From positions 1 through 30,641 of the IMG/VR virus record IMGVR_UViG_3300029922_000230: a DNA stretch of 30,641 nucleotides, one strand, 5' to 3'. Positions 641 to 30,452 of the stretch are shown one piece after another; the stretch's first letter is position 1; every line of letters starts with the position of its first letter. Source of the stretch: a virus. Both the position numbers and the translations under genes were made by a program. Under the pieces are notes generated by a model, which made no database searches, had not been told where the DNA came from, and saw nothing but the letters and a program-made list of their open reading frames with translations.

Positions 641-656
641 AAGTCAATTATGACTT
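641..656. promoter_or_regulatory. Intergenic palindrome, perfect copy
   Basis: AAGTCA-ATTA-TGACTT is a perfect 6+4+6 palindrome in the 48-base gap between the metallophosphoesterase gene and the tail fibre gene. It is one of 11 copies in the window. Function unknown; an operator for a dimeric regulator is my inference. Confidence 0.7.
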
Positions 657-660
657 GCAT

Positions 661-2496
661 TCAAGCTCGCCATTTTCCAGATTGAAGAGTCACAATACAG
701 CGCTTTCCATTGGCGTATTGCAGAACGTGCGACACGGCCCAGCCCGAAGGCCCGAGATTGTAGCCGTGCTGAAGATTCATCGCGCCCGCGCCATAGACTC
801 CCTCGTTGATGGAAGGACTATGCTTGTCGCCGATCGACATCTTACGGCCCATCTTGGCGTAACCGGAGACCGTACCTTGAGCGCCATTAGCGCCGCGAAA
901 GCCGTGATGTCCACACTCGATATCATCGACAAGAAAGCTTTCACCGTCATAGGCCCATTCAACGTGATCGATCAGACTCCCCATGATCTCACGAAGGGCG
1001 TTTTCCAGGAGAGCGAACTTCTTTGGCGCCTTATAAGCGTCAAGCTCCTTCGCGACGTGTTCGCGATGCTCGACCATTTCCCCTTCGAGCCAGAGACCGA
1101 ACTTTAGGTTGACGCCATCATTGCGATAGCGACCTTCCTTGATGTAGCGCCCGAGCGCGAGATCGTGGTTCGACTCGACTTCGATAATACGTAGACCAGG
1201 GCGTCTCAGAAGCGATAGAAAGCTCCCTAGGGACGCGATCTCGCTCTTGATGCATGTTCGACCTCGCATCGCGAGTTCGAAGCTAGCGTGCCCGTCACCG
1301 GCCCTGTGATGATTGCCGATTTCTTGATCGTGACCGTCGTGAATAAAAATAAGTTCCGGAGCCAGATCATCTAGCATGGAGTAACCAACCTTGACGTCGC
1401 GCTTAATATCAACGCCGAACGCGGCGACCGTGTTGGCGGGATCAAGCTTGGCGCGATGAAGATCCGCGAAGACGATCGACTTGACGTGATGACCGACGCT
1501 TATGACGCCATTCGCGACGTAGCGATCCAACTCGTAGAAGCTGCCATCCTTCTCGGCGTTGATCTGGCGGCAGAAGATATCGCCTTCGTGATCGAACTCG
1601 ACCAGCGTCGCGCCGATGACATGATGAAAGATGCTCTTTACGCCAGCCTTGCGGGCGATCACCTTGGGCCTTGTCACGGAGCCCGATGTCATGACCTGAT
1701 GAGCCTGGCGTTTCGGGTCCGTGGTCGGAACGCTTTCGAGCGCGAGTTTGGCGTGAGGAAATACTGCCCAACGACCGCGGCTATAGGTCGTGAGATCCGA
1801 GATCGGCTTCGAGGCGGTAGGAAGAGTGTTCATCTCGCCGCAGAAAACGAAGTTGTCGCCGATCGCCAGCTGACCGAAGCAAAGGTGATTTGTAAGAAGT
1901 GGATCATAGGAGCGCGACACCGGGTTATTCTCGCTCCACCACTGGGTCTCGTATGTCCAGGGTCCGACGACGATCTCGGCATCTATGAATTTCGCGAAGG
2001 CTTGAAGGTTCACCCAGAAAGATTGATCGACGATGGCGTCATTCTGAGCGCCTGTGAAAAGGAATTTCCTGTTCCGACAGTCCTCGATAGGCGCAACGCG
2101 CAGCGTATCGGTGATCCAAGTGCGAGGTGTTCCTTCGACATCCTTATATCGACCAGAAGCGCGGTCGTATCGCTCGGAGAGATAGCTATCGACCATAAGC
2201 GATTCTGGATTGATGATCGGGTATTTCGAGCGGCTCAATAGCGCGTCGATCTCACCCTTGAGACGATTCGCGCGAGCCTTGGCGTGATCGACGGGCTTCG
2301 GCTCGACGGGAAGCGCAGCCTCGCGCTTGCGAGTAATAATCAGTAGCCTATCGTTACGATAGATCGCCGATCGATTAATGACCGTCTTCCGGGATATCTT
2401 GAGCTTCTTCGCCACGTCAGCGATCAGAGGATATTTCTTCGTATCGTTGTAGATGGCGATGAAGTCGGTCGAGTCCGGAAGAGTCCTATGTGTCAT
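661..2496 (-). CDS. HTH plus metallophosphoesterase protein, phage T5 A1-like
   Basis: A 611-residue protein. Residues about 22-50 look like a helix-turn-helix (LIADVAKKLKISRKTVINRS). The C-terminal half carries the ordered motifs of a calcineurin-like metallophosphoesterase: D345-x-H347 (FADLH), a Gly-Asp region degenerate as HDGHD (387-390), SNHD (442-445), paired histidines at 530-531 followed by Gly-rich turns, and IGDKHSP (555-561) where relatives usually have a GHTHSP-like site. From memory, this arrangement and the ending YANGKR...GKWR resemble phage T5 A1 and related DNA-transfer proteins; T5 A1 is needed for second-step DNA entry and host DNA breakdown. Here it lies between the spanins and a tail fibre, in late territory. 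It has its own upstream 33-bp element (2526-2558). The start lacks a clear ribosome site, and a 19-codon reading frame overlaps it. The phosphoesterase fold is fairly sure; the A1 role is inferred. Confidence 0.72.
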   Translation of the reverse strand: MTHRTLPDSTDFIAIYNDTKKYPLIADVAKKLKISRKTVINRSAIYRNDRLLIITRKREAALPVEPKPVDHAKARANRLKGEIDALLSRSKYPIINPESLMVDSYLSERYDRASGRYKDVEGTPRTWITDTLRVAPIEDCRNRKFLFTGAQNDAIVDQSFWVNLQAFAKFIDAEIVVGPWTYETQWWSENNPVSRSYDPLLTNHLCFGQLAIGDNFVFCGEMNTLPTASKPISDLTTYSRGRWAVFPHAKLALESVPTTDPKRQAHQVMTSGSVTRPKVIARKAGVKSIFHHVIGATLVEFDHEGDIFCRQINAEKDGSFYELDRYVANGVISVGHHVKSIVFADLHRAKLDPANTVAAFGVDIKRDVKVGYSMLDDLAPELIFIHDGHDQEIGNHHRAGDGHASFELAMRGRTCIKSEIASLGSFLSLLRRPGLRIIEVESNHDLALGRYIKEGRYRNDGVNLKFGLWLEGEMVEHREHVAKELDAYKAPKKFALLENALREIMGSLIDHVEWAYDGESFLVDDIECGHHGFRGANGAQGTVSGYAKMGRKMSIGDKHSPSINEGVYGAGAMNLQHGYNLGPSGWAVSHVLQYANGKRCIVTLQSGKWRA

Positions 2497-2545
2497 GTGC
2501 TCTGTTTCTGCGTTGGAAAGCGAACTCCCAAGTCCGCTCTCTCAT
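2486..2545 (-). other. Possible 19-codon leader ORF overlapping the next gene's start
   Basis: An ATG inside the 33-bp element opens a 19-codon frame beginning MRERTWE and ending in TAG at 2488-2486, overlapping the start of the metallophosphoesterase gene (2496) by 11 bases in another frame. The other two element copies also read MRARTWE from their ATG. No Shine-Dalgarno is seen. It may be a translated leader used for coupling, or chance. Confidence 0.25.
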
Positions 2546-2558
2546 ATATTACTTACTA
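2526..2558 (-). promoter_or_regulatory. 33-bp shared element (copy B), putative phage promoter
   Basis: Read on the minus strand it contains the cores ATATGAGAG and GGACTTGGGA, preceded by GTAA-type tetranucleotides. It matches the element at 30524-30556 at 31 of 33 positions and lies 29 bases upstream of the metallophosphoesterase ATG. The AT-rich upstream part and the fixed orientation toward the gene suggest a promoter, but no convincing sigma-70 -35/-10 pair is visible. Confidence 0.5.
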
Positions 2559-2589
2559 GATAAATACATACTTACTTATATAGCGGTAA

Positions 2590-2955
2590 CTACTTCACAG
2601 TATCGAGGGCGGGAATCACCACCGGATCGGTAGTCTTCTCGTAGTAAGTAACAATGGCATTCATCTTCAACATCCACTTGGCGACGCGAAGTTTATTCTT
2701 CACGTCGTCATGAGCCTCGCTGAGTGCGACGCACGCCTTCACGGTGTCACACTCCTGCCAATGCAACGGCATCAGCTTGAGCGCGGCGGGTCGCGCGGGG
2801 TGAGCAATCGCCGGCGTCTCAACGGTGAGTCGAAGCGGTTCCGCGGGAGGCGCGCTCGAGCAGCCGGTCAGCGGCGTCAGAAGAAGAATTAAGGGCAGCA
2901 ATAGCAGCGGCAGCGGCGGAAAGATGGGACGATGAAGGCGTTTGAACGGCGACAT
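2590..2955 (-). CDS. o-spanin, outer-membrane lipoprotein (Rz1-like)
   Basis: 121 residues from the ATG at 2955, which has AGGA upstream; the frame is open further (to 3045), but that start lies outside a sensible signal peptide. The N-terminus has basic residues, a strongly hydrophobic Leu-rich stretch and the lipobox LTGC, with Cys32 as the predicted lipidated residue, followed by Ser-Ser, which favours outer-membrane sorting. A Pro-rich region follows, then a helical C-terminal domain. The first 137 bases lie inside the 3' part of the i-spanin gene in another frame, the nested arrangement known for Rz/Rz1. With the i-spanin it would span the periplasm and fuse inner and outer membranes in the last step of lysis. 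Assignment is by architecture, not sequence identity. Confidence 0.8.
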   Translation of the reverse strand: MSPFKRLHRPIFPPLPLLLLPLILLLTPLTGCSSAPPAEPLRLTVETPAIAHPARPAALKLMPLHWQECDTVKACVALSEAHDDVKNKLRVAKWMLKMNAIVTYYEKTTDPVVIPALDTVK

Positions 2956-3304
2956 GGGACTGGTCCTCTGTGATGGGAGCGGGCGCCGGGGGAGGGAGAT
3001 CCACGGCTTCGATCTTGGCGTCGATTTTCTCATCGATCTTTTCATCGGTCGCCGAGAGCGTGGAGAGACCGTCCGAGACGCGAGCGGCGCTCTGACGAAC
3101 CAACTCGGAAGATTGCTCGGCGAGATCCTTGGAGACCTGAGCCTGGGCGGCGATCGTGGTCTGCTGAATTAGAGCGGCGCGATTGTTCTCGATGTGCCGA
3201 TAGCCGGCGAATATAACGCCGACGATCACGAGGGCCGCCAGACCGATCGCGATAAGCTTCGCGCCAATGCTAGCGGGCGTCAGGGAGCTGAGAAGCTTGA
3301 TCAT
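2819..3304 (-). CDS. i-spanin (Rz-like)
   Basis: 161 residues. A single transmembrane helix lies at about residues 15-38 (IGAKLIAIGLAALVIVGVIF), N-terminus in the cytoplasm, followed by a periplasmic helical, Ala/Gln/Glu/Lys-rich region likely to form a coiled coil and then a Pro-rich linker (PPPAPAP). It starts at 3304 with a 4-base ATGA overlap with the holin-like gene stop, and its 3' end contains the start of the o-spanin gene. This is the canonical inner-membrane partner of the spanin complex that disrupts the outer membrane after the wall is cut. The C-terminal 40 residues (Ser/Ala-rich) may be shaped mainly by the overlapping o-spanin signal sequence. Confidence 0.78.
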   Translation of the reverse strand: MIKLLSSLTPASIGAKLIAIGLAALVIVGVIFAGYRHIENNRAALIQQTTIAAQAQVSKDLAEQSSELVRQSAARVSDGLSTLSATDEKIDEKIDAKIEAVDLPPPAPAPITEDQSHVAVQTPSSSHLSAAAAAIAALNSSSDAADRLLERASRGTASTHR

Positions 3305-3666
3305 GGAGCGCCTATGGGTTGGCTCGGTCGGTGATAGGGACGCGAGGTGTCGATGGGGCCGGAAGTTATCGTCTGGTCGCTGTGATAGGTCTCGAAGCTG
3401 CCCGAGCTATAGTCGTTGCCGCCGACCATGCGCTTGTTGTGATCATCCCAGACCACGCCGAAGATGTAAGCGCACAGCAGCGAGGTCGACGCGCCGGCCA
3501 TGGCGATGAACGCCTGGTCGTAGAGCGCATTCTCGGTGCTATGGAACGCCGCGTAGATGATGATCCATGTCATCGTGACCGCCTGCCAGAACAAGGCGAT
3601 GAACAGCGTTCGGCGACGATATCGCCAGTTGTCGCCGCTCGCATTGTCCGGAACAGGCTGACCCAT
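3301..3666 (-). CDS. Holin-like membrane protein, two TM segments
   Basis: 121 residues with two hydrophobic helices, about residues 20-40 (TLFIALFWQAVTMTWIIIYA) and 50-73 (AFIAMAGASTSLLCAYIFGVVW), preceded by a basic RYRRR stretch and followed by a long polar tail. This topology and its place directly after the endolysin gene fit a class II holin-type protein. The start ATG shares one base with the endolysin stop (TAATG), so translation is probably coupled. Another membrane protein lies on the other side of the endolysin (4249-4551); which is the holin and which an antiholin or helper cannot be told from sequence. Confidence 0.65.
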   Translation of the reverse strand: MGQPVPDNASGDNWRYRRRTLFIALFWQAVTMTWIIIYAAFHSTENALYDQAFIAMAGASTSLLCAYIFGVVWDDHNKRMVGGNDYSSGSFETYHSDQTITSGPIDTSRPYHRPSQPIGAP

Positions 3667-4241: not shown

Positions 4242-4248
4242 GATATCC

Positions 4249-4551
4249 TCAGTGAAACAAAGCGACGAATTTCGACCAGAAGGTCGTTAGAAACAGAGCA
4301 AAGCCGCCCAGGGCGGCTAGAACGTAGTAACCGCCATGCGCCATATCGAGTGACTTCTGTACGTTATCCAGACGAATCTTGAGGATTAACGTTTCGGCGG
4401 CGAACGCCTCGCGCGTAAGCTTCGTTTCTTCCTTGAAGGTATCGCGATGCTCCTTTAGGTCGGCTGTAAGTCGGGTTAGGCGATCAGCGATGACCGCCAG
4501 ACCGGGCTCGGAGCCCACATGAACCTCAACGTTGGTGTTTTCGTCAGACAT
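4249..4551 (-). CDS. Small coiled-coil membrane protein, XhlA/holin-associated type
   Basis: 100 residues. The start is set at ATG 4551, which has GGAG six bases upstream; the longer TTG reading would place that GGAG inside the gene. A charged helical N-terminal region (about 20-65, rich in Lys/Glu/Arg/Thr) likely forms a coiled coil, followed by one hydrophobic helix near the C-terminus (YYVLAALGGFALFLTTFW). This layout, coil then terminal membrane anchor, is that of haemolysin XhlA-like lysis proteins. It is the first gene of the lysis cassette and may help or modulate the holin. The family call is by architecture only. Confidence 0.6.
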   Translation of the reverse strand: MSDENTNVEVHVGSEPGLAVIADRLTRLTADLKEHRDTFKEETKLTREAFAAETLILKIRLDNVQKSLDMAHGGYYVLAALGGFALFLTTFWSKFVALFH

Positions 4552-4588
4552 TGGGTTCTCCAAAAGGATATGCGCCTAATCCGAGCGC

Positions 4589-4604
4589 ACGTCAATACTG
4601 ACTT
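4589..4604. promoter_or_regulatory. Intergenic palindrome copy with extra half-site
   Basis: ACGTCA-ATAC-TGACTT, one mismatch from a perfect palindrome, lies in the 88-base gap just upstream of the lysis cassette. A third half-site AGTCA follows at 4613-4617, with an 8-bp palindrome TGATATCA (4606-4613) abutting it. The extra half-site is unique to this copy. Confidence 0.6.
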
Positions 4605-4639
4605 ATGATATCAGTCATGAGCGCAAATTGGAACCTCGA

Positions 4640-5233
4640 CTAGGCGATCGCCACTGTATTCGTGCCGGCCAGGTGCCAGGCCGTCGCGGTGCTTGTGACC
4701 ATTCCGCCGGTTCCCGCGCCGCTTCCCTCCTGAGTTCCCGCGCCATTGAAGACGCGCGCGTTGGTGGCGTAGGCCAGAAGTCCCAGCGCCGGCGCCGGTA
4801 AGCCTGCAACCGTGCTTGTGGGAAGAGTAATGGATGTTCCGCTGATGATAAGAGAGCCGTTGATCGAGATCGAGCCGTTCAGAATGGCCGAGAGTGGCGA
4901 GAGCGCGACGAGCGCAGCCTCGATATCCAGGAACGTCTGTCGGATAAGACTTGAGGTATCGACATCGCCATAGGTCGGCGTCGGATAGGCGTTGACCGGG
5001 GTGAAGTCGCGCTGAATAGCGTAAGCGACGCCTGTCTTCGTGGTGCCGGTGTAGGGCGCTCCGAGAACAAGATCTCCATTGTCGGTGATAGACGAGATCG
5101 AGTACCAGACGCCTTCGCCTTGAATCTCAAAGAGGTTTGTGGCGATGACGTTTCCGACCCAGAAAGAGCCTACACCCGTGACGGCCGTGCTACCGTTGGT
5201 GACTGAAACCGTGCCTAATCGATACTGAGCCAT
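4640..5233 (-). CDS. Tail fibre/tail-tip associated protein with duplicated N-terminal domain
   Basis: 197 residues with AGGGA upstream of the ATG. Residues 1-95 form a small beta-rich domain (GTVSVTNGSTAVTGVGSFW ... GDLVLGAPYTGTTKTGVAYAI ... FTP) that I recognise as common at the N-terminus of siphophage tail-associated proteins. The neighbour at 5293-5634 is a diverged copy of the same domain. The C-terminal half is Gly/Ser/Thr/Ala-rich and ends in a beta-like segment that may be a small fibre tip. It follows the J-like gene and precedes lysis, where fibre and fibre-attachment proteins usually sit. The exact role is unknown. Confidence 0.6.
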   Translation of the reverse strand: MAQYRLGTVSVTNGSTAVTGVGSFWVGNVIATNLFEIQGEGVWYSISSITDNGDLVLGAPYTGTTKTGVAYAIQRDFTPVNAYPTPTYGDVDTSSLIRQTFLDIEAALVALSPLSAILNGSISINGSLIISGTSITLPTSTVAGLPAPALGLLAYATNARVFNGAGTQEGSGAGTGGMVTSTATAWHLAGTNTVAIA

Positions 5234-5260
5234 GACAATCCCTATGTCTGTCTGAATAGT

Positions 5261-5276
5261 AAGTCAATTGTGATTG
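5261..5276. promoter_or_regulatory. Intergenic palindrome, degenerate copy
   Basis: AAGTCA-ATTG-TGATTG, with the left arm intact and two changes in the right arm. It occupies the 59-base gap between the two paralogous tail-associated genes. Confidence 0.5.
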
Positions 5277-5292
5277 GTGATCTAGTCCAAAC

Positions 5293-12512: not shown

Positions 12513-13272
12513 TGTTACCCTCGTATCGAACCCAGATATCAGCGGCGCGAGCCCAGATGCCAGCGGGCTCCCGACGAGAGAGCCGCGTGGGAAGGTGGTG
12601 AACGAGAAGCCCGCCAGTGAGAAGCAGCCCCGCGTGGTTAAGGCGCTCGCTGTGAATCTTCATGAGGAATCCATCACCGGGGCGAGCCTCTTCGCGCTGA
12701 ATTCTCACGAAGCCTTCCTTCATGAAGTTCTCGGCGTAGAGGTCTTGATCGGGCTTCTTGTGACTACCCCACCAACCATCCTTGCGGGGGTATTCGTGAA
12801 TGACGATAGGATCGAACGGCCATTCGACGTCTTGCTTGGCTAGTTCAACCTTGCCGAGCTTGAAGACGTCGCGCGCGAGGCTGTAGCAGTCGCGTATCCC
12901 GTGCATAAAGGTGCGCCCCAGGATCGCCGGAACAGGGGTGTCAGCGCCCCAGATTTCCGGGGGTGACACAAGCGCCCCGTCAGTCGCGACAAGCACCCAG
13001 GGAAGCGCTGTGTCGATCTGGCCCTGCATATCGAGCTGCGAAGGGAAGTAGGGGCCGTTGGGATGCGAGTGAACGACAGCTTCGATCTTTTTCCCTGCGA
13101 TAATCAGGCTTGACTGCACCGCTCCGGAGATCGAAAAATCTTCCTCTGGTTTTGAGGCGTAGTTGAAGCAAGGCATGTAATCGCCATCAACGATCAGCCC
13201 GCAAGATTCTTTCGGAAATTCACGTATCGCGTGCGCGTTCAGATCCTTGATGTTCTGGGGCGTCAGGATCAT
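12505..13272 (-). CDS. K: Tail-tip peptidase, JAMM plus NlpC/P60 (lambda gpK-like)
   Basis: 255 residues with two enzymatic domains. The N-terminal JAB/MPN metalloprotease motif is complete: E22 (KESCG), HSHP at 68-71 and S78-x-x-D81. The C-terminal NlpC/P60 cysteine-peptidase domain shows C129 in RDCYSLARD, H213 in LNHAGLLL and a further His pair at 225-226. Lambda gpK has the same two-domain plan; NlpC/P60 domains cut peptidoglycan stem peptides, which would help local wall opening during DNA entry or tail maturation. It overlaps L by four bases (ATGA) and I by eight. All key residues of both domains are present, so it is probably active. Confidence 0.93.
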   Translation of the reverse strand: MILTPQNIKDLNAHAIREFPKESCGLIVDGDYMPCFNYASKPEEDFSISGAVQSSLIIAGKKIEAVVHSHPNGPYFPSQLDMQGQIDTALPWVLVATDGALVSPPEIWGADTPVPAILGRTFMHGIRDCYSLARDVFKLGKVELAKQDVEWPFDPIVIHEYPRKDGWWGSHKKPDQDLYAENFMKEGFVRIQREEARPGDGFLMKIHSERLNHAGLLLTGGLLVHHLPTRLSRREPAGIWARAADIWVRYEGNNA

Positions 13273-13982
13273 TGGAATCTCGCGACGCCGGGGAAGCCAG
13301 CGAAAGGGAGCGCAGCCGTCGAGCCAAAGCGAATCTTGCAGGAATTGACGCTTCGCCCGCAGTCATCTTTCGTATTGTCGGTCGTGACGTTGTCGTAGAC
13401 GTCATAGGTTGACCCGACGTAGGGGCATTGCGCGAGCGAGTAATCAAAGCTCGCGGAGAGCGGGTTCCAAACCCGATAGCGCCAGGTGCAAGTGTCACGA
13501 ATGACCATGCGCGCGGGTATCTGAGCGCCCTGATTATCGATTGAGGCCGAGAGCTCCCATTCGATGTATATCGGGTTCTCATTGGTCTTGCGCTCGACCC
13601 GAAACATATCGGGACCATAGTAGGCAGTAGGATCGGCCTCGGGCGCCCCGTCGAGAAACTGAGAAAAGGTGCGTATGCGCTGAATGTCGCAGCCGACCAG
13701 ATCGCCATAGGTGTTAACCATCGCCTGAAAGATGCCGTTGGTGTTGGCGAGCTTGATCTTGGGCGTGGGCAGACCGCCGCCGGCTACGATTTCGAAGCCT
13801 TTGAACTCGACATCAACTGGCGTGTAATAGATGCCATTGAAGGTCACGCCAGATGCCGCGCCGGCTATGGTGTTCTGTGAGAAATAGGCGATAGGGCCAC
13901 CGAGCGGGCTCGTATCCAATTTGAACAAGGAGACAAGAGCGCCTGGCGCCGAGCTTCTCTGTGCTGCGATAAGATTGGTCAT
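13269..13982 (-). CDS. L: Minor tail protein, lambda gpL-like, with Fe-S cysteine set
   Basis: 237 residues. The N-terminal beta-rich part (SLFKLDTSPLGGP, then GVTFNGIYYTPVDVEFKGFE) and the C-terminal DDCGRSVNSCKIRFG are characteristic of lambda gpL. Four cysteines, C165, C186, C208 and C215, occupy the C-terminal domain; in lambda gpL an equivalent set binds a [4Fe-4S] cluster. A fifth cysteine, C98, lies in the N-terminal half. The protein joins the tail tip beneath the tube. The start has AAGGA five bases upstream, and the stop overlaps the K start as ATGA. Confidence 0.92.
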   Translation of the reverse strand: MTNLIAAQRSSAPGALVSLFKLDTSPLGGPIAYFSQNTIAGAASGVTFNGIYYTPVDVEFKGFEIVAGGGLPTPKIKLANTNGIFQAMVNTYGDLVGCDIQRIRTFSQFLDGAPEADPTAYYGPDMFRVERKTNENPIYIEWELSASIDNQGAQIPARMVIRDTCTWRYRVWNPLSASFDYSLAQCPYVGSTYDVYDNVTTDNTKDDCGRSVNSCKIRFGSTAALPFAGFPGVARFQ

Positions 13983-14010: not shown

Positions 14011-14026
14011 AAGTCAATAATGACGT
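14011..14026. promoter_or_regulatory. Intergenic palindrome copy
   Basis: AAGTCA-ATAA-TGACGT, one mismatch from perfect, in the 52-base gap between the M-like and L-like genes. It begins 28 bases upstream of the L-like ATG. Confidence 0.6.
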
Positions 14027-20116: not shown

Positions 20117-20509
20117 CTACGCGGCAGAAGACGTATCCGAAGTCGTAAGACTTGACGTTGCGGGAGGGTTTGCGGCAGCATCAGCCGCAACCTCCCCGTC
20201 AGCTTTACGCTCGCCGTTATGCGTCTTGGCGAACTCGAGAATCTTATTGAGACTCGCCAGCGGCAACTGAATCAGCATTTCGTGAGTGAGGGTCTTGAAG
20301 GATCGGCCGATCATCTTCGTCAGCGTGCCGATCTCGGTCTCGATGTCGGTGGCGACGGCGAGAGCCTGCATATCCTTGGTGTTGGCAATCCACGCCTCGA
20401 CCGTCACAGGGGATAGCGCATGAGCGACGCCAGCGAGCTTGATGGTAACTTCGGGGAATTCGCTCGCGATCGCGTCCAGATCAAGAAATTTCGTCGGTGC
20501 GGAAGCCAT
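20117..20509 (-). CDS. G: Tail assembly chaperone, G-like
   Basis: 130 residues, small and mostly helical, with an Ala/Thr/Ser-rich disordered tail. It lies directly between the major tail protein and the tape measure, the conserved site of tail assembly chaperones, which coat the tape measure during tube polymerisation and are not in the virion. Sequence similarity to lambda G cannot be judged by eye; the assignment rests on position, size, and the overlapping -1 frame with a slippery site (20165-20171). A short stem-loop AAGTC-TTAC-GACTT (minus strand, 20153-20140) lies 11 bases after the heptamer and might stimulate slippage. A terminator separates the gene from the major tail gene. Confidence 0.78.
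   Translation of the reverse strand: MASAPTKFLDLDAIASEFPEVTIKLAGVAHALSPVTVEAWIANTKDMQALAVATDIETEIGTLTKMIGRSFKTLTHEMLIQLPLASLNKILEFAKTHNGERKADGEVAADAAANPPATSSLTTSDTSSAA
20165..20171 (-). other. Slippery heptamer AAACCCT for -1 frameshifting
   Basis: In the G frame the codons read GCA-AAC-CCT, so A-AAC-CCT fits the X-XXY-YYZ rule for tandem slippage; both tRNAs re-pair as AAA and CCC. It is the only such heptamer in the window where the T frame is open and G has not stopped. A 5-bp stem-loop begins 11 bases downstream. Confidence 0.65.
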
Positions 20510-20526: not shown

Positions 20527-20561
20527 CAAAGAAAAACTGGCGCTTCTTGCGAAACGCCAGT
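20527..20561 (-). terminator. Intrinsic terminator after the major tail protein gene
   Basis: On the minus strand ACTGGCGTTTC pairs with GAAGCGCCAGT (11 bp with one G-U) around a GCAA tetraloop, followed immediately by a T-run (TTTTTCTTT). It lies 36 bases after the major tail protein stop and before the chaperone gene. It would reduce transcription into the chaperone and tape measure genes. Confidence 0.85.
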
Positions 20562-20573
20562 CAATATTGATCT
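20558..20573. promoter_or_regulatory. Intergenic palindrome, degenerate copy beside the terminator
   Basis: CAGTCA-ATAT-TGATCT keeps the TCA-N4-TGA core. It abuts and slightly overlaps the 5' arm of the terminator stem that follows the major tail gene. Confidence 0.5.
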
Positions 20574-20596
20574 ATCTCACTTGAAATTACAAGTGA

Positions 20597-21460
20597 TTAG
20601 ATGGCCGAAGCGTCACCGATCAAGAAGAGATTGCCGTAGACCGGGTCCGGATAGCCCGTGAAGGTGACGTCGTAGATGCGCTCCTTCTCGAGTTGGTAGG
20701 CGAACTTCAAGCCGCCGGCGGTCGCCGCATACGGGATGTTAAAGTCTTCCGAGCGGTTCGTGTCGGCGTTCGCCTGCGGATGTAAGGTAAGCAGCTGGGC
20801 GATCGCGAGTAGCGAGGTGCCGACCGCGGTCGGGACGGTCACTTTGATCTTGGTGCCGAGAACGCCGCCCGTCAGGGTCGCGCCGGAAAGCGTCACGGTG
20901 CCGGTGCCGGTCTTGGCGAGGGTGATGGTGTTCGAGGAGAAGTAGGCGGTGTCATAGCTGTCCGCGACGATCGTCGCGACGCCTAGAGCCGAGGTGCCCG
21001 TAACCATGCCGACCAGCGGATCTTCATCGATGTTGAACTGCGCCACGAAGTTCGCGGCCTGCGCCGTGACCGAAGCGCCGATCAAGAACTGATTGGCGGC
21101 GAGCGGACCAGTGGCGACGGCGGTGTAGGTCTTGCCGTTGACGGAAATGGTGTCGCCGACAGTCGCAACCGTGGTCCAGGTGATCGTACCCGAAGCCTTG
21201 ACGGCGCCGTTCTCGTCGATGACAGCGCCCGGCATGATGCGGACCAAGTTGTCGAGTGTGGTTTCCGCCAACGGCACTTTCACCGAGACCGTGCGGCCCA
21301 GGATGATTTCGTTGATGACGGACTTGCCATACTGATCGACCAACACCTGATGCGTCTCGGTCTTGACTTCGACGTCCACGCCGCCCTGGGTATAGCCCAG
21401 GTCAACGCCGCCAAAGAGAACCTTGCAGACACCCAGGCGAACGTTATTTGTGTTGCTCAC
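20597..21460 (-). CDS. Major tail tube protein with inserted domain
   Basis: 287 residues, GTG start with AGGA about eight bases upstream. The ends (GVDLGYTQGGVDVEV near the start; YQLEKERIYDVTFTGYPD near the end) are those of siphophage tail tube proteins. Residues about 92-215 look like a separate inserted module (VGDTISVNGKTYTAVATG, FLIGASVTAQAANFVAQFN, SGATLTGG), of a kind I recognise as recurring in surface-exposed regions of phage structural proteins. The tube protein forms stacked hexamers around the tape measure. The gene is flanked by two palindromes upstream and by a palindrome plus strong terminator downstream, suggesting it is transcribed and ended as its own unit within the operon. 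Confidence 0.88.
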   Translation of the reverse strand: MSNTNNVRLGVCKVLFGGVDLGYTQGGVDVEVKTETHQVLVDQYGKSVINEIILGRTVSVKVPLAETTLDNLVRIMPGAVIDENGAVKASGTITWTTVATVGDTISVNGKTYTAVATGPLAANQFLIGASVTAQAANFVAQFNIDEDPLVGMVTGTSALGVATIVADSYDTAYFSSNTITLAKTGTGTVTLSGATLTGGVLGTKIKVTVPTAVGTSLLAIAQLLTLHPQANADTNRSEDFNIPYAATAGGLKFAYQLEKERIYDVTFTGYPDPVYGNLFLIGDASAI

Positions 21461-21464
21461 GGCG

Positions 21465-21479: not shown

Positions 21480-21484
21480 TTGGG

Positions 21485-21499
21485 AAGTCAAAGTGACTT
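21485..21499. promoter_or_regulatory. Intergenic palindrome with 3-base spacer
   Basis: AAGTCA-AAG-TGACTT has perfect arms but a spacer of three rather than four bases. It is the promoter-proximal member of a pair upstream of the major tail gene. Confidence 0.6.
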
Positions 21500-21527
21500 G
21501 AACAATTATAACCTTGAAAACGCCGAT

Positions 21528-21543
21528 AAGTCAAAGCTGACTT
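21528..21543. promoter_or_regulatory. Intergenic palindrome, perfect copy
   Basis: AAGTCA-AAGC-TGACTT has perfect arms and overlaps the stop codon of the tail terminator gene. With the copy at 21485 it forms the only pair in one gap, 43 bases apart start to start (about four helical turns). Confidence 0.65.
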
Positions 21544-22384: not shown

Positions 22385-22392
22385 GCCGGGTT

Positions 22393-22740: not shown

Positions 22741-22741
22741 C

Positions 22742-23611: not shown

Positions 23612-23617
23612 CGAAGT

Positions 23618-24199
23618 TTACCTCGAGCCGGCGCGACGAGCGCGGGCGACATCCTGAGCGCGAAGGATCGACGCCATCAGTTCCGGAATTGCCCGGCCCT
23701 TAACGCCGTAAACCTGAGCGATATCGCGAAGACCCTGAATGCCGCGCTCATCCACGACGCCACAGAGCTGATCATGCGAGTAGAAGGGCTGAGCCTCGAG
23801 TTCGCTTTTCTTGGTCTGCTTGATCGCCTCGGCGTCCGTCGCCTTCTGATCGGTCGTGGGAGCCACGAGCGGCGCGACGATCGTCAGTTTGATAGGCTTG
23901 TTATTGATGAGCCGCTGACCTGGGCCGACCTGAAGACCCGTTTCCGGATCGATGCATCGAAGCTGTGTCGCTACGCGATCGACAGCGACCTGCGGTAGCG
24001 GCTCATCGGAAAGACCATTGGTGAAATTATGCGAACCAAAGTCGCCGGTGTAGTTTTCCCAACCCTTCGACATCATGCGAATGTGAATCCTAACGCCGTT
24101 ATCGGGAACTTCGGCGGGAGCAGGCGGCGGAACGTGAATGTGCGGGCGACCAGTGACGACGGCGGGCTCGACGGTGCCCTTGACGAGAATATCGGCCAT
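23618..24199 (-). CDS. Head-region protein with SAP/HeH-like C-terminus
   Basis: 193 residues from ATG 24199, which shares one base with the glutaredoxin stop (TAATG). The frame stays open to 24427, but that extension reads Arg-rich nonsense inside the glutaredoxin gene. The N-terminal two thirds (PHIHVPPPAPAEVPDNG, then GWENYTGDFGSHNF) have no recognised domain. The C-terminal 45 residues, GIQGLRDIAQVYGVKGRAI-PELMASIL, resemble a SAP, HeH or Rho-N type helix-extension-helix that binds nucleic acid in other proteins. Similar domains occur in small proteins next to phage capsid genes. The role may be in head completion; this is an inference. Confidence 0.55.
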   Translation of the reverse strand: MADILVKGTVEPAVVTGRPHIHVPPPAPAEVPDNGVRIHIRMMSKGWENYTGDFGSHNFTNGLSDEPLPQVAVDRVATQLRCIDPETGLQVGPGQRLINNKPIKLTIVAPLVAPTTDQKATDAEAIKQTKKSELEAQPFYSHDQLCGVVDERGIQGLRDIAQVYGVKGRAIPELMASILRAQDVARARRAGSR

Positions 24200-24459
24200 T
24201 AGTGGCCTCCGATCATTTGTTGGAGAGTGCCGTTTAAGTCGGCCATGAGCAGGTCCGAGTAGCCGCCAACATGAATCTTGCCGATGAATATCTGCGGCAC
24301 GGTCAGGGCGTGATTCGAACGCGCGGCGAACTCCTCTTCGAGCGAGGGGTCTTTGGTCATGTTGCGGTAGACGAAGGCGATGCCTTGCTTTTGAAGCAGC
24401 GCGCGGGCGCTGGCGCACCAGCGACAAGTGTCGGTTCCGTAGATTTCGACGGTCTGCAT
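24199..24459 (-). CDS. Glutaredoxin
   Basis: 86 residues, the normal length of a small glutaredoxin. It has the dithiol active site C12-R-W-C15 at the end of the first strand, the cis-proline motif TVPQIF (53-58) and the GGYSD loop (65-69) that binds glutathione. The CRWC site differs from the common CPYC, though both cysteines are present. The enzyme reduces disulfides using glutathione in the cytoplasm. Its place between capsid and tail genes, directly after a terminator, is unusual, since phage glutaredoxins normally accompany nucleotide-metabolism genes such as ribonucleotide reductase; here it may serve structural proteins or simply be a cargo gene. Confidence 0.92.
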   Translation of the reverse strand: MQTVEIYGTDTCRWCASARALLQKQGIAFVYRNMTKDPSLEEEFAARSNHALTVPQIFIGKIHVGGYSDLLMADLNGTLQQMIGGH

Positions 24460-24470
24460 AGCTGCCTCAT

Positions 24471-24499
24471 AAGCAAAAGGGCGGGATTGCTCCCGCCCT
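24471..24499 (-). terminator. Intrinsic terminator after the major capsid gene
   Basis: On the minus strand AGGGCGGGA pairs perfectly with TCCCGCCCT (9 bp) around a GCAA tetraloop, followed by TTTTGCTT. It lies between the capsid stop and the glutaredoxin start. The stem is very GC-rich, so it should end much of the capsid transcript. Confidence 0.85.
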
Positions 24500-24504
24500 A
24501 ATGT

Positions 24505-24520
24505 AAATCAGTTATGACTT
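24505..24520. promoter_or_regulatory. Intergenic palindrome copy before the capsid terminator
   Basis: AAATCA-GTTA-TGACTT, one mismatch, lies between the capsid stop codon and the terminator stem, in the same order as at the major tail gene. Confidence 0.6.
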
Positions 24521-24530
24521 TCGTTCAAGA

Positions 24531-25433
24531 TCAAACGTTGGTCAGACCGGCGAGACGAGCCAGGCTCAGCGTGGACTTCAGGGCGGTGCCCACATACCAC
24601 TTCATGCGGTAGCGAACGGCGTCCTTGTTCTGGATCGTGCCGATATTCTCGACCTGAATGCCGCCCGACGGGCCGCCGTAGATGCCATGGAAGCCGTCGA
24701 CTTCGTTCAGGCGAACCGCGTAGATCGAGGTCGTCGCGTTGTTGGTGCCGCAGGTCTCGTTGTTCGGGATGAAGTCATTCAGCACAACCGGGATGCCGTC
24801 GTAGACATGGATCGGCTTGCCGAAGTTCTCGATCATGACCGTATCGGCCATGTTGCCGTTGAACGAACGAAGCAAAGCGCGGATCGCGCGCCAGGTCGAA
24901 CGACGCATCACGAAACAGTCGGCGCCGAGCTTCACGAGGTCTTTCAGTTCGTCGAGCATCGCCAGCGTCAAGGAGGCGCCGTTGACGTCGGCCAGAATCA
25001 CCTGGCTCGGGTCGCAGAGGGAAGCGATGCCGTCGAAGGACTTCGGATTGACCGAGGAATAACCCTGAACCAGGGCGCGACGGAAGGCGCGGCCGAGACC
25101 CTTGGCCTTGGAAGCCAGCTGAATCGCAAGCTGCGAGTTGCTGTTGGACTGCGTCGCGAGCAGGAACTTGTCCATATCGACGTCGCCGGCCATGATCTTC
25201 AAGGTCGTGGTGATTTCGGTGAAGGTCGCGCCGCCTTCGTTCACGGGATCGTAGGGCGACAAGAAGTCGGCTTCCGTCAGCGTGTTTTCGCGGTTGTAGA
25301 GATACGCCTTCGAATTGACGTACATGAACGGAAGAAGGGCGAACAGCTCATCGATGTCGATGATCTCTTCGATGACGCCGCGCTCAAGCTGCTCAAGCGA
25401 CAGTTGGTTGGCGGTTGCGACCAGCAAGGGCAT
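24531..25433 (-). CDS. Major capsid protein, HK97-fold type
   Basis: 300 residues with a strong GGAGAA ribosome site. An N-terminal helix precedes an acidic/aliphatic stretch and an E-loop-like region (SKAYLYNRENTLTEADFLSPYDPV). The central domain has the typical RRALVQGYSSVNPKSFDGIASLCDP capsid pattern: a helix, an aromatic-Gly turn, and a short segment naming the domain loop. The C-terminal part contains a G-x-P-V-hydrophobic strand (YDGIPVVLNDFIPN), Y-GPSGG and VENIG. The position after scaffold and before neck genes is canonical. No maturation protease gene is visible, so the scaffold may be removed by another route. Palindromes and a terminator bracket the gene. Confidence 0.92.
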   Translation of the reverse strand: MPLLVATANQLSLEQLERGVIEEIIDIDELFALLPFMYVNSKAYLYNRENTLTEADFLSPYDPVNEGGATFTEITTTLKIMAGDVDMDKFLLATQSNSNSQLAIQLASKAKGLGRAFRRALVQGYSSVNPKSFDGIASLCDPSQVILADVNGASLTLAMLDELKDLVKLGADCFVMRRSTWRAIRALLRSFNGNMADTVMIENFGKPIHVYDGIPVVLNDFIPNNETCGTNNATTSIYAVRLNEVDGFHGIYGGPSGGIQVENIGTIQNKDAVRYRMKWYVGTALKSTLSLARLAGLTNV

Positions 25434-25449
25434 TCGTGTTCTCCATGAA

Positions 25450-25513
25450 GCTTCTCGCGGGAAGCTAGAAAGCGTAAGTCAAATCTGACTGGCACTATGA
25501 TACCGCGAGAAGC
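25450..25513 (-). promoter_or_regulatory. Long-range stem in the capsid gene leader, enclosing a palindrome
   Basis: On the minus strand GCTTCTCGCGG (25513-25503) can pair perfectly with CCGCGAGAAGC (25460-25450), 11 bp, with a 42-base loop that holds the palindrome 25476-25491. The stem ends a few bases before the GGAG ribosome site of the capsid gene. It may stabilise or control the most abundant message. Confidence 0.6.
25476..25491. promoter_or_regulatory. Intergenic palindrome in the capsid leader
   Basis: AAGTCA-AATC-TGACTG, one outer mismatch, lies in the loop of the capsid leader stem within the 147-base gap between scaffold and capsid genes. The rest of that gap is AT-rich with no other feature seen. 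Confidence 0.6.
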
Positions 25514-25580
25514 CTCATTGTCAAACATCAAAATGGAGCAATACTCGACTATTAGGTCGAATATTACATTTCTGCCCTAA

Positions 25581-26504: not shown

Positions 26505-26522
26505 ATGCGTACTACCTTCTTC

Positions 26523-26564
26523 GGCCGGTCACTTGGCCTGGTGTTCGAGCCGGTCTCTTGGCTC
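26523..26564 (-). other. Two tandem small hairpins between portal and scaffold
   Basis: On the minus strand GAGCC-AAGAGACC-GGCTC (26564-26547) and GGCC-AAGTGACC-GGCC (26538-26523) are two stem-loops with nearly the same 8-base loop. They lie in the 80-base gap, the only sizeable late gap apart from 2497-2589 with no palindrome. They may bind a protein on the RNA or mark a processing site. Confidence 0.45.
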
Positions 26565-26584
26565 TATCAGCGAGGATCGCCGAT

Positions 26585-28453
26585 TTATTTACCGGTCTGG
26601 CTCGTCACCTGTCCTTGGCGATTAGCTGTTCCGGGATTCTTGGATTTCGGGTTGCCGCCCTTGGAGGCTTTCTTCGCCTTGCCACCGGAGTTTCCGCCGG
26701 GGCCGGCGATCACTGGCGCGAGTGGAACCTGCGGTATGATCGGGGGCGGGGCGCCCGGCGTCATCGTCGAGGTGAGCTTGGCGGGGAATGTCGCTGTCGG
26801 ATTGCCGGTGTTCACGGCCTGGATCTGAATCTGATCGGCGCCCGTGATGGGCCAGGAAACCAGCTGAGCCAGCATCGCTTTCTTCAGCGACGCCTTGATC
26901 GAGGGAAACATCTTGTCGATCATCGTTCTCATTTGCGTCTGACGCACGAGCTCAGGGGCGTCAATCAATTCTAAGCGCTCTGCGACAGTGAACTCGTCAT
27001 AAAGCGAGCGCACGTCGAACGTATCAGCGTACTGTACTAGACGGGGCTCTCCGTCGTCCCCAGGGGTATCCGTCTGGGGTAGCTTCTCGCCGTTCCAAAG
27101 AGCGACAAGCTCGATCAGCTTGTCTTCCGCGTTCTGAAGGCTGGCGCTTTTGGTGGTCAGCAGCGAGTTCAGCCGCTCGAAGTCGTAGGCTTTCGCCACC
27201 CCCGAGGAGCTGTCGGTGCCGACGGCGTTGTCCTTCTCGGTGCGCTGCTCGCCCATGCCGACGGAATGGTAGATTTCGTTGATGATCTTATTGATCACCA
27301 CGACGATGATCTCGGCCTGCTTGACGTCAGGACTGAGATATTCCGGCTTGGCACCGCTCTCGCCGTCATAGGTGAATACACGCTTGGTGCCCAAACCGAT
27401 GAGCGCCTCGTATTTATCGGTGCCGGGCATCATCCCCTGCGCCGGCATCGCCAGTTGCGAGAAGGTCTGATCCTGAATGATCGCGTCGAGGTTCGAGAGA
27501 TAGTTCGCCACCGCCTTGTCGAGATGAGCGATATCGCCGATCAGCGAGGGCGCGGAATACTTATTGTCGCCGATCACGTTATCGACGGGGAAGAAAGGCA
27601 CGCGGCCGATCGAGAACTGACCGCTGCTGACCAGCTGAACGCTGACCTTGCCGTTGTTGGCGACATTCTGAATATAAGGCGACACGCCGGGGAGTTCGAG
27701 CTGCGCGATGGCGCTCGCCGCCGGCGCGTTCATAAAGCCGTTCTGAGCCGACTGCGGAGCGCCAGGGCTCTCCGAGCTGCCATTAACGCCTTCGTCATTC
27801 TCGTTGATTTCGAATAGATACCAGCTGTCCGTCGTCCATAGACGATATCGCTCGCGAATGACGCCCGACGATTTAATCGGGTCCGCGTCGTCGCGCTTGT
27901 ATTCGCGCACGAGAATCCAATTTAGGTCATCGTGCTCGTCGAAGCCGATGTCGAGCACGTCCTTGGCGGGAACCAGATAGGTGTAACAGCGTGCGCCGAC
28001 GGCTTTCTCATCAGCCTTACTCAGCACGCTATCGGTCTTGGTCGAGTCGACGCAAACCCAGGCGCGACCCTCGATCGAGGACGCGGACGCCACGAGCTTC
28101 ATATATTGCTCGATGGTCAGCTTTGAGAGCGTCGCGTCCTTCCAGAACGCCCGGATGTAATCAGGCGCATCATCCCAATTGCGGGCAATGTCGGACTTGA
28201 AGATATATTTCTGAACGAGATCAACGACTTCCTTGGTATGCGGGAAGCGATAAGCGCGCTCGCAGCGATCAAGATACTCCTGGTCGCCTTCCTTGATGTA
28301 GCGAAAGACGTTGCCGTTGAACCATTCGCGCCCGCCGTCATACGTCTTCTGGCAAAAGATCCACTCGTGGAGCTTCTTCCGGTAGTCAGGGTGGCGACGC
28401 GCCAGAAAGCTCTGAAGCGTCTTTTGATCGGTTACGTCTATCGAAAGCGGCAT
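26585..28453 (-). CDS. Portal protein
   Basis: 622 residues, within the range of siphophage portals. The first part is helical with many aromatic residues (HPDYRKKLHEWIFCQKTYDGG, YRFPHTKEVVDLVQKYIF), then a mixed wing-like domain, a segment of long helices (NYLSNLDAIIQDQTFSQLA; a stem-like NKIINEIYHSVGMGEQRTEK near 390-410) and a helical crown. The Gly/Lys/Pro/Gln-rich last 45 residues look disordered. The portal forms the dodecameric ring at the capsid vertex for DNA entry and exit. It sits between large terminase and scaffold. The exact portal family is not certain; it may be of the DUF4055 type. Confidence 0.85.
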   Translation of the reverse strand: MPLSIDVTDQKTLQSFLARRHPDYRKKLHEWIFCQKTYDGGREWFNGNVFRYIKEGDQEYLDRCERAYRFPHTKEVVDLVQKYIFKSDIARNWDDAPDYIRAFWKDATLSKLTIEQYMKLVASASSIEGRAWVCVDSTKTDSVLSKADEKAVGARCYTYLVPAKDVLDIGFDEHDDLNWILVREYKRDDADPIKSSGVIRERYRLWTTDSWYLFEINENDEGVNGSSESPGAPQSAQNGFMNAPAASAIAQLELPGVSPYIQNVANNGKVSVQLVSSGQFSIGRVPFFPVDNVIGDNKYSAPSLIGDIAHLDKAVANYLSNLDAIIQDQTFSQLAMPAQGMMPGTDKYEALIGLGTKRVFTYDGESGAKPEYLSPDVKQAEIIVVVINKIINEIYHSVGMGEQRTEKDNAVGTDSSSGVAKAYDFERLNSLLTTKSASLQNAEDKLIELVALWNGEKLPQTDTPGDDGEPRLVQYADTFDVRSLYDEFTVAERLELIDAPELVRQTQMRTMIDKMFPSIKASLKKAMLAQLVSWPITGADQIQIQAVNTGNPTATFPAKLTSTMTPGAPPPIIPQVPLAPVIAGPGGNSGGKAKKASKGGNPKSKNPGTANRQGQVTSQTGK

Positions 28454-28484
28454 CAGGGGTTCCAGCCTATTCGGCGCGAAGGGT

Positions 28485-28500
28485 AAATCAATTCTGACTT
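28485..28500. promoter_or_regulatory. Intergenic palindrome copy
   Basis: AAATCA-ATTC-TGACTT, one mismatch, in the 57-base gap between the large terminase and portal genes. Confidence 0.6.
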
Positions 28501-28510
28501 GTAATCAAGG

Positions 28511-29800
28511 TCAACGGGAATATCCAGCCATTTCAACCTTCCGAACCGGAAATTCGATATCCATGGCGTAACCCACGGCGTCGGCGGCGTGCTCGATGTT
28601 CATCGTCTTATCCACATCCCGCGTGCCGGGTTTGTAAATAACCTGCTCGAACGCCGTGATGGTGTGCTTGCAGGAATGGTCGATCCGCATCCGAATGGTG
28701 CCGTCGGCCGACTTGAACATTCGGTTCACCGCGTTCACGCGATCGGCGACCTTGGGCGCCTTCCGACGATACTTTAGCCTAATGAAGCCGGCCTCTCGCA
28801 TAATGTCGAAGTCGGATTCGCCGTGCTGATGACCTCGCTGCGTGCCGGCTGGGTCGGGATAGACCGTGACCGATTTCATCTGCCTGAATAGCAGCTCGCC
28901 GAGCTTGTCGGACGCCTCCTGGGTGTTCGAGCCGAAGATGACCGACTCGTTCACGATCCAGATTTCGCCGTTTTCCTGCGGCTGCATGATGACCGAGGTC
29001 ATCGGGTCGATGTTGAAATCCTGCCCGACCCAGATCGGCAGTTTCGGATTGAAGGCGTAGTTACCCAGATGAATGTTACGGTCGAAGGCGTGATAGACGC
29101 GACCGCTCATCGACTCGAAGGACGCTTCAAACTCCTGGCGGAACGACTTCTCGTCGAGATCGTGGCGTGCGGCGACGATCTCCTCGGGCGGGATGAATGG
29201 CGAGGTGATGGTCGGGAACTGCCAGGACTTCCAGGGATTAACGACATGAACTCTGCGCTTCGGGTCGTGAAAGGTGTCGCCTCGCTGGCCGAGCATGTAG
29301 ACGTCATAGAGCCAGTTGAAGGATTTGGGCGTGCCGATGATCAGGGCTTCGCCGCGGGTGGACGCGAGCGTCGGCCGCAGAATCTTGTACCAAGTGTCTT
29401 CCCGAATGTTCTGAGCCTCATCGATCACAACGAGATGCAATCCTACCCCACGAAGCGTATCGGGCTTGTCAGCCCCCTTACACTCGATTCTAGTCTTGTT
29501 TACGAGCGTGATGATCATCAGCGTCTCGTCCGCCTTCGCGATGAGACCGCGGGGGATCGATTCCAGCAGCTCGAGCCACATAATGCCGCGCGCCATTCGA
29601 TAGGTCGGCGCGACGTACCAGATCAATCGCCTCGGCTTCTTCGAGGCTTTAATGATCGCGCTCTTGGCGCTTTGCGTCTTTCCCCAGCGTCGGCCGGCGA
29701 CGATCACCTTGAATCGGTGTCGATCGTCGATGACCTTGCGTTGACCAGAATGCACCGTGAGAGTCTTGCGAACCCTGGCGCCTAACGCGAGCGTGCTCAT
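28511..29800 (-). CDS. terL: Terminase large subunit
   Basis: 429 residues. The ATPase domain shows Walker A AGRRWGKT (35-42), Walker B LVVIDE (123-128) followed by AQ, and the coupling motif IIGTP (154-158). The C-terminal RNase H-like nuclease has D261 in GQDFNIDP, a second Asp in YPDPAG and the final HAADAVGYAMD. It drives ATP-dependent DNA packaging through the portal and cuts concatemers. The start overlaps the small terminase stop by four bases (ATGA). All key residues are present. Confidence 0.95.
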   Translation of the reverse strand: MSTLALGARVRKTLTVHSGQRKVIDDRHRFKVIVAGRRWGKTQSAKSAIIKASKKPRRLIWYVAPTYRMARGIMWLELLESIPRGLIAKADETLMIITLVNKTRIECKGADKPDTLRGVGLHLVVIDEAQNIREDTWYKILRPTLASTRGEALIIGTPKSFNWLYDVYMLGQRGDTFHDPKRRVHVVNPWKSWQFPTITSPFIPPEEIVAARHDLDEKSFRQEFEASFESMSGRVYHAFDRNIHLGNYAFNPKLPIWVGQDFNIDPMTSVIMQPQENGEIWIVNESVIFGSNTQEASDKLGELLFRQMKSVTVYPDPAGTQRGHQHGESDFDIMREAGFIRLKYRRKAPKVADRVNAVNRMFKSADGTIRMRIDHSCKHTITAFEQVIYKPGTRDVDKTMNIEHAADAVGYAMDIEFPVRKVEMAGYSR

Positions 29801-30429
29801 TCGACCACGACATCGTCATCCGCGTCCAGCGGGGCCAGCGGATCGAAATCCATGGCCTTGCCCTGCTGAAGGTTGATGATTTCCTCGTCGCTCAGGTCGC
29901 GGATGACGATCTCGGGCAGTTCGTCAGTCGCGATATGATCGTCCATCGCCAGATTTTCACGCATTCCGGTGTTGGCGATCTGGAATTGACGCGCCAGAAG
30001 CATCGCTTCCTTCTCGGAAAGTGGGTCCGTCACCTTGTTCGCCAGCGCGGTAGCGGATTCCCGGAACTTCATGACGGCGCGTTGACCCATGATCCGGAAG
30101 CCCTGATTGGCGAAACCCTTCCATTCTTCGATCCGCTGAAGGCGTTGTTCGGCGAAAGACGAAGCCCTTGCCGCGGCGACGGCGTTGGCCGCGGCGGCTT
30201 CCGCTTCTTTCCGAATACGTCGAACCTCGCCGCGAGTGAGGTTCATGGCCCGGAACATCTGACTGAAATGCTGAGCCGTGCGATCGTACTTGCGCGCGAT
30301 GTCGGCGATGGAGATGCCTTCACCGAAAAGTTCGACAGCATCCTGCTTCTCCTCCGAGGTCATCGGAGGCTTTTTCGTTGCGCCAGGAACTTCCTCTTCC
30401 AATTCCGGAAGCTCGATTTCTTCAGACAT
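29797..30429 (-). CDS. terS: Terminase small subunit
   Basis: 210 residues. An acidic N-terminus precedes a helix-turn-helix at about 28-62 (AVELFGEGISIADIARKYDR, then the recognition-helix-like TAQHFSQMFRAM), followed by a basic Ala-rich helix (RRIRKEAEAAAANAVAAARA) suited to ring oligomerisation, and an acidic C-terminus (DADDDVVVE) that may contact the large subunit. It recognises the packaging site and loads the large subunit. A 41-base leader separates the start from the 33-bp element, with one degenerate palindrome in it. Identity rests on HTH architecture and the ATGA overlap with terL. Confidence 0.82.
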   Translation of the reverse strand: MSEEIELPELEEEVPGATKKPPMTSEEKQDAVELFGEGISIADIARKYDRTAQHFSQMFRAMNLTRGEVRRIRKEAEAAAANAVAAARASSFAEQRLQRIEEWKGFANQGFRIMGQRAVMKFRESATALANKVTDPLSEKEAMLLARQFQIANTGMRENLAMDDHIATDELPEIVIRDLSDEEIINLQQGKAMDFDPLAPLDADDDVVVE

Positions 30430-30436
30430 AACGTTC

Positions 30437-30452
30437 CATTCAAAAGTGACTT
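30437..30452. promoter_or_regulatory. Intergenic palindrome, degenerate copy in the terS leader
   Basis: CATTCA-AAAG-TGACTT keeps one complete arm and the TCA-N4-TGA core. It lies eight bases upstream of the terS ATG, partly over its ribosome site. Confidence 0.45.

Follow-up and report, generated by a model that had tools for sequence, protein, structure and literature searches.

A short palindrome, AAGTCA-N4-TGACTT, recurs in the gaps between genes of the virus record IMGVR_UViG_3300029922_000230 (IMG/VR), whose 30,641 bases were taken whole and are called the window here. These palindromes are very probably the operators of a phage-encoded lysogeny (immunity) repressor of the XRE type, a role in DNA binding, repression and lysogeny that we infer from comparison of sequences. 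The window, whose genes all lie on the - strand, encodes late functions of a tailed phage, namely a terminase, portal, capsid, major tail protein, tape measure, tail tip and endolysin. Its terminase and capsid are closest to those of the RHEph10-group Rhizobium phages (62-63% identity), followed by Pseudomonas, SSU5-type Salmonella/Escherichia and Klebsiella phages; relatives were identified with the large terminase gene (28511..29800, - strand), which is 62.7% identical to that of Rhizobium phage RHEph10. The repC gene is found in RHEph10 and other relatives (in unannotated relatives we read it from the sequence), and one relative, G003, equals a contig of 109,453 bp in the genome of a Faunimonas pinastri isolate. 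The RHEph10-like element pLM21S1 exists as a circular, plasmid-like prophage and has a RepC replication system (PMC4447125). Because of these relatives, the window is most likely a piece of a phage-plasmid, related to the ~110-kb members of the RHEph10/SSU5 superfamily; no replication genes lie in the window fragment itself.

The first-pass annotation listed 11 copies of the palindrome in 10 gaps, and all are found where it placed them, including the copy at 21485 with its 3-base spacer. At two mismatches or fewer the window holds 10 matches, compared with 0.43 ± 0.66 in dinucleotide shuffles, and none of 100 shuffles reached 10; at three mismatches or fewer there are 23 matches against 6.5 expected. 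Nine of the 10 closer matches are listed sites, while the tenth, ACGCCAGAACTGACTT at 10217, has no TCA core and falls within the tail-tip gene. Weak copies that keep the TCA-N4-TGA core also occur inside genes at 13101, 16202 and 27324, each with three mismatches. The earlier statement that no copy falls inside a gene is therefore correct for the better matches but not overall, and since 10217 and a few three-mismatch matches do fall in genes, the absence from genes is strong rather than absolute. Each of the 10 site-bearing gaps is directly upstream of a gene start. The conserved unit extends one base further on each side, giving the 18-bp palindrome TAAGTCA-N4-TGACTTA.

The same arrangement is found in related genomes. 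Counted with a dicodon-scored gene caller, 420 of 481 sites at one mismatch or fewer in 25 sequences lie in gaps, which make up ~12% of the DNA, and the median distance from a site to the next start codon is 30 nucleotides (nt). The complete relatives thus carry the motif mostly in gaps rather than equally often in genes, and they retain both the gaps and the motif. Exact copies number 23 genome-wide in G039, 20 in G011 and 10 in G004. A reversed-pattern control for the initial pattern gave almost no matches; the 4-bp periodicity of the CAGTCA class means that such a control is not independent there. When we searched for any dispersed palindrome, a single dominant family, always with an N4 centre, emerged in nearly all of 17 complete genomes; the top N4-centred half-site of each has 7-37 exact copies, compared with 2-7 in shuffles. 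The weakest case is G019, where the dominant palindrome is merely level with unrelated GC-rich palindromes. Half-site letters differ by lineage (TAAGTCA, TCAGTCA, TAAGTAA, TCAATCA/TAAATCA) while geometry and places are kept, as seen at the capsid, portal and ParB-like/helicase promoters, where the position of the site is constant and its letters vary. The commonest site in four genomes (G025, G029, G032 and G034) pairs one TAAGTCA arm with one TAAGTAA arm, a hybrid form. The operator upstream of the major capsid protein gene (24531..25433, - strand) is present upstream of its orthologues in all of the first 12 genomes examined. These genome-wide palindromes support the first-pass proposal that symmetric sites spread through the genome serve a dimeric DNA-binding protein, probably a repressor.

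The sites are closely tied to promoters. We oriented 352 sites by the direction of transcription and compared promoter-like matches, which are consensus matches and not mapped starts, with those on the reverse strand. A sigma70-like promoter running with transcription lies in or beside 213 of the 352, against 123 on the reverse strand. In the commonest register the palindrome takes up the 17-nt spacer that separates -35 from -10; this nested register, with the -10 starting at the last base of the palindrome, accounts for 60 forward and 23 reverse matches. The palindrome lies just after the -10 in 44 (17 reverse), and one of its arms serves as the -35 in 35 (19 reverse). In 22 cases a TTGA tetranucleotide starts at precisely 8 bases before the site, compared with 5 on the reverse strand, and the oriented logo of the sites reads T-AAGTCA-R-T-A-Y-TGACTT-A. 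The portal promoter illustrates the nested register: in nearly all of the 17 genomes it consists of (C)TTG, the 16-bp palindrome and a TATNAT-like -10. Within the window, this register is the best match for the sites at 641, 5261 (weakly), 14011, 24505 and 28485, and the two best - strand promoters of the late half, those of the capsid and major tail protein genes, overlap or abut the sites at 25476 and 21528/21485, respectively. Because the sites occupy the core promoter in several registers, they point to steric repression.

The best candidate for binding the palindromes, judged from gene content and covariation, is an XRE-type helix-turn-helix (HTH) protein of 130-150 amino acids, present once in each of the 17 complete motif-bearing genomes (weakly in G030) and detected in 18 of the 22 records in a second set that overlaps partly with these. 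It matches HTH_3 in 11 of the 17 and phrog_8, “transcriptional regulator”, in all 17, and is annotated as a hypothetical protein in RHEph10, where it is gp041, and in most of the isolated phages. The HTH domain is confidently predicted in its structural model. Among solved structures the model most resembles the controller protein C.BclI, lambda CI and related folds, all with weak E-values. A repressor of the S24/LexA-like kind was rejected, as 22 of 23 records contain no S24 peptidase domain and the sole match (G018:66505-66858) is a different gene. Immediately downstream of the XRE gene, the gap holds a site in 12 of 20 cases, compared with 0.66 expected, and is another place that stays occupied as the letters vary.

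The first residue of the recognition helix varies with the letters of the operator. It is Asn where position 6 of the half-site is rich in A (TAAGTAA), and Lys, Arg, Gln, Ser or Thr where position 6 is mainly C; the mean A fraction at this position is 0.66 with Asn and 0.13 with the other residues. In independent contrasts on a terminase+capsid tree, from which G030 was left out owing to an unclear helix alignment, the correlation is r = 0.86, and among 9,692 universal-protein columns (17,704 tests) the residue column shares first rank with two columns of other proteins. We take this residue to correspond to lambda Q44, 434 Q28 and P22 N32, the canonical specificity position. As Asn-adenine and Lys/Arg-guanine (G:C) are standard contacts, the pairing of residue and letter agrees with general contact chemistry.

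Two outgroups, the Escherichia coli LF82 phage-plasmid Cyrano and Klebsiella pJN2-26, were examined after the residue-letter pattern had been noted. Both share the gene order integrase, XRE homologue, ~70-amino-acid gene, CobT and CobS, and both XRE homologues have Asn at the specificity position. Sites of the TAAGTAA/TAGGTAA type number 12 in Cyrano (79 kb read) and 21 in pJN2-26 (100 kb read), compared with 0-1 in shuffles. The Cyrano homologue, CYRAN_45, is described as a “putative repressor”, and its transcription in the lysogen is 10-fold over the prophage background (PMC9928086); we found no published operators for it. SSU5 keeps 19 operator-like sites, while the integrase-XRE-70-amino-acid block, which Cyrano carries between its tRNAs and CobT, is absent between tRNA-Asn (42525-42596) and CobT (42761) of SSU5 (L376). 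Because the block is missing and the operators are kept, SSU5 looks like a natural repressor-less (virulent) derivative. The outgroup Pseudomonas phage nickie has neither the XRE gene nor the sites.

Several observations weigh against assigning the palindromes to an XRE repressor. The XRE gene belonging to the window lies outside the 30.6-kb record. About 40% of the 352 oriented sites have no recognisable promoter. The first-pass annotation had suggested looking for an HTH gene itself preceded by a site; the XRE gene has an upstream site in 6 of 20 cases, compared with 1.65 expected, a weak enrichment that makes autoregulation through its own promoter too weak as proof of a repressor. Distances between whole XRE proteins follow motif distances no better than those of other genes (r 0.29, rank 4 of 31), so that this Mantel-type correlation is uninformative for finding the binder. 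The specificity column was noticed before being tested, and two other columns tie with it. The N-type member L359 has mostly C-type sites, and G030 keeps the C-type motif despite a very divergent XRE protein. Finally, sites are present in G034, G035 and SSU5, where no XRE protein was found by profile; the G034 record ends at the XRE locus.

Some of these points would be explained if the operators were bound by some other phage protein, whether of the HTH, ribbon-helix-helix or ParB-like kind, and the XRE protein regulated something else, as with the three genomes that have sites without a detectable XRE, the tied columns and the whole-protein distances. We consider this unlikely: the XRE protein is the only regulator-type HTH protein recognised in all 17 genomes, the site-rich genomes G030 and G037 have neither ParA nor its small partner gene, and, while the XRE column falls on the known specificity position, the tied columns come from proteins of the nuclease/phosphoesterase type. 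It is also quite unlikely that a similar repressor acts at these sites mainly by blocking elongating polymerase between genes, as at the stoperators of L5. The placement in short gaps within long co-directional operons and the share of sites without a promoter suit such roadblocks, and L5 also has 20-30 sites along its genome (PMC6550527). The sites here, however, are palindromic and registered on promoter elements, and the two best promoters in the late half of the window coincide with them. The first-pass choice of L5 stoperators as the closest analogue gives way to P1 C1, which the promoter association and the site in the portal spacer favour.

Late activator sites that recruit polymerase to phage promoters, an alternative raised in the first-pass annotation, would fit the many sites that precede structural genes and the small sigma-factor gene in 15 of 17 genomes. 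They are very unlikely because early and replication genes are also preceded by sites and because the sites take at least three registers (-35, spacer and start) with normal 16-18-nt spacing, which suits occlusion rather than recruitment. Dispersed plasmid centromeres (parS-like) used in partition are a highly improbable reading. Both ParA and ParB-like genes are carried by these phage-plasmids, and N15-type elements do have dispersed centromere sites, but here 20-40 copies are tied to promoters, the sites lie ~30 nt from start codons, and the reading was rejected since the sites are retained in G030 and G037 in the absence of ParA. A role in processing or termination as RNA hairpins with a 6-bp stem and a 4-nt loop has a negligible probability: perfect copies could pair as RNA, but a site in the nested register lies upstream of the start and is untranscribed from that promoter, and the C-type/A-type hybrid arms, the commonest form in the four genomes named above, break the stem instead of preserving it by compensatory change.

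The mechanism we propose for an XRE repressor is as follows. Its gene would lie beside the plasmid replication and CobT/CobS region, outside the window fragment, and a dimer of its product would bind the 18-bp palindrome. With the site located within the core promoter, mostly in the 17-nt spacer and otherwise overlapping the -35 or the start, binding would exclude RNA polymerase. One protein could shut dozens of early, replication and late promoters singly during plasmid maintenance, and the lytic programme would be released when repressor activity is lost, either through loss of the repressor or through an antirepressor. Direct RecA-driven cleavage is unlikely because the XRE protein has no S24 domain. 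The absence of a response of pLM21S1 to mitomycin C (PMC4447125) is consistent with this, and the 39-fold induction of Cyrano by ciprofloxacin (PMC9928086) would need an indirect route.

Several known systems share parts of this design. In lambda CI, P22 C2 and 434, helix 3 of the HTH reads a palindromic operator. The XRE protein and its palindromes are similar, but the S24 peptidase domain is lacking and the operators are dispersed, not clustered at one divergent cI/cro switch; no adjacent cro was recognised, and an upstream site is found at only six of 20 XRE genes. The SAS/ESAS elements of Cluster K mycobacteriophages are conserved just upstream of many start codons; these are tied to translation start, unlike the sites here, which are tied to promoter elements. 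The homologous CYRAN_45 of Cyrano shares the same gene order and is annotated only as a putative repressor. The stoperators of L5/Bxb1 (Cluster A) are 13-14 bp long, have no dyad symmetry, are bound by a monomer and are mostly not associated with promoters (PMC6550527). The system here resembles them in its dispersed sites (20-30 in L5), lineage-specific consensus and repressor-less relatives (cf. SSU5), and differs in its palindromic, promoter-associated sites (213 of 352 against 123 on the reverse strand). In P1, one repressor, C1, acts at 22 operators genome-wide, which are 17 bp long and asymmetric, ATTGCTCTAATAAATTT (PMC8546580). P1 is a phage-plasmid, as the element in the window probably is, and about 20 or more operators lie at promoters across its genome, as in the complete relatives (the window fragment has 11), whereas the sites here are 18-bp palindromes, often nested in promoter spacers, and the protein is a small XRE protein. 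C1 is a closer analogue than the L5 stoperators. Because the defining features of the P1, L5 and lambdoid systems each partly fail, the palindromes may represent a separate form of dispersed-operator immunity, of which we found no published description in the openly licensed literature.

A broader proposal, to which we give an even chance, is that the SSU5/RHEph10 superfamily, which ranges from alphaproteobacteria to Escherichia, Klebsiella and Acinetobacter, has in common a single undescribed XRE immunity system in which 20-40 promoters are closed via spacer-nested palindromes and a residue-base code defines immunity groups. If so, cross-immunity among these widespread plasmids could be read from sequence. 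The covariation of residue and base also opens immunity specificity to a direct test. Phage-plasmids of the superfamily are common: relatives of the XRE protein, counted by protein alone, occur in 902 plasmid records, mostly from Klebsiella, Escherichia and Acinetobacter. In these elements the operators would point to a repressor gene annotated as a hypothetical protein, predict the set of promoters that are silent in the plasmid state, hint at which elements exclude one another and flag natural repressor-less derivatives such as SSU5.

A closer look at the individual sites in the window shows how they sit relative to genes and promoters. The operator AAGTCAATTATGACTT (641..656, no mismatch) lies 31 nt before the ATG of a gene running off the contig and is nested in a - strand promoter with its -35, TTGAAT, at 664-659 and its -10, TATGCT, at 641-636. 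Directly after a -10-like TATCAT (- strand) is ACGTCAATACTGACTT (4589..4604, one mismatch), upstream of a small membrane-protein-like gene (4249-4563). At AAGTCAATTGTGATTG (5261..5276, two mismatches), upstream of a tail-fibre-like gene (4640-5233), a -10-like TACTAT begins at the last base of the site on the - strand. The site AAGTCAATAATGACGT (14011..14026, one mismatch), upstream of the gene at 13269-13982, is nested in TGGACG-N17-TATGAT (14034-14006, - strand). The weakest, CAGTCAATATTGATCT (20558..20573, three mismatches), is upstream of the gene at 20117-20509 and overlaps the start of an intrinsic terminator. The promoter-like TTGACT-N18-TATAAT (21505..21534, - strand, 11/12) before the major-tail-protein-like gene (20597-21460) has an operator on either side: an arm of AAGTCAAAGCTGACTT (21528..21543, no mismatch) forms its -35, TTGACT, and the copy with the 3-base spacer (21485..21499) is just downstream of its TATAAT. 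The site AAATCAGTTATGACTT (24505..24520, one mismatch) is nested in TTGAAC-N17-TACATT, upstream of a glutaredoxin gene (24199-24459, - strand) that lies in the late operon between the capsid and head-completion genes. The capsid promoter, the promoter-like TTGACA-N16-TATCAT (25497..25524, - strand, 11/12), lies upstream of the major capsid gene, and AAGTCAAATCTGACTG (25476..25491, one mismatch) follows closely downstream of its -10. The portal gene (26585-28453) is preceded by AAATCAATTCTGACTT (28485..28500, one mismatch), nested in TTGATT-N17-TACCCT, and a terminase-small-subunit-like gene (29797-30429) by CATTCAAAAGTGACTT (30437..30452, two mismatches), at which no good promoter was found.

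Two of the operators, those at 20558 and 24505, are directly followed by strong intrinsic terminators on the - strand (20535-20562 and 24478-24499, the latter after the capsid gene). The start predicted for the nested promoter at 24505 falls inside the 5′ arm of its terminator, so that a transcript from this promoter might escape termination. At its truncated end, the window has tandem 21-bp repeats (20-495) that encode an alanine-rich repetitive protein.

The XRE locus of the relatives has further features. The ~70-amino-acid gene between XRE and CobT is conserved, usually with an operator in front (L212:7878-8102, which is G011:67578-67802, and orthologues; CYRAN_46; pJN226_0109); by analogy with P1 Coi, we speculate that it is a candidate antirepressor or a partner of the regulator. 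A small sigma-70 region 2 protein is encoded just after CobS in 15 of the 17 complete genomes (G011:71833-72483; G039:26564-27178; RHEph10 gp045). In G035, which has AGTAA-type sites, a different small HTH-like open reading frame with no Pfam match occupies the XRE locus beside CobT (G035:106690-107019; L392:7190-7519), and a swap of the repressor gene is possible there. A second dispersed palindrome, AAACAA-N-TTGTTT, has seed counts of 14 in SSU5 (L376/L377), 14 in pJN2-26 (L419/L420) and 4 in Cyrano (L417/L418); it is not a dominant motif in the alphaproteobacterial relatives and is perhaps the site of a second regulator.

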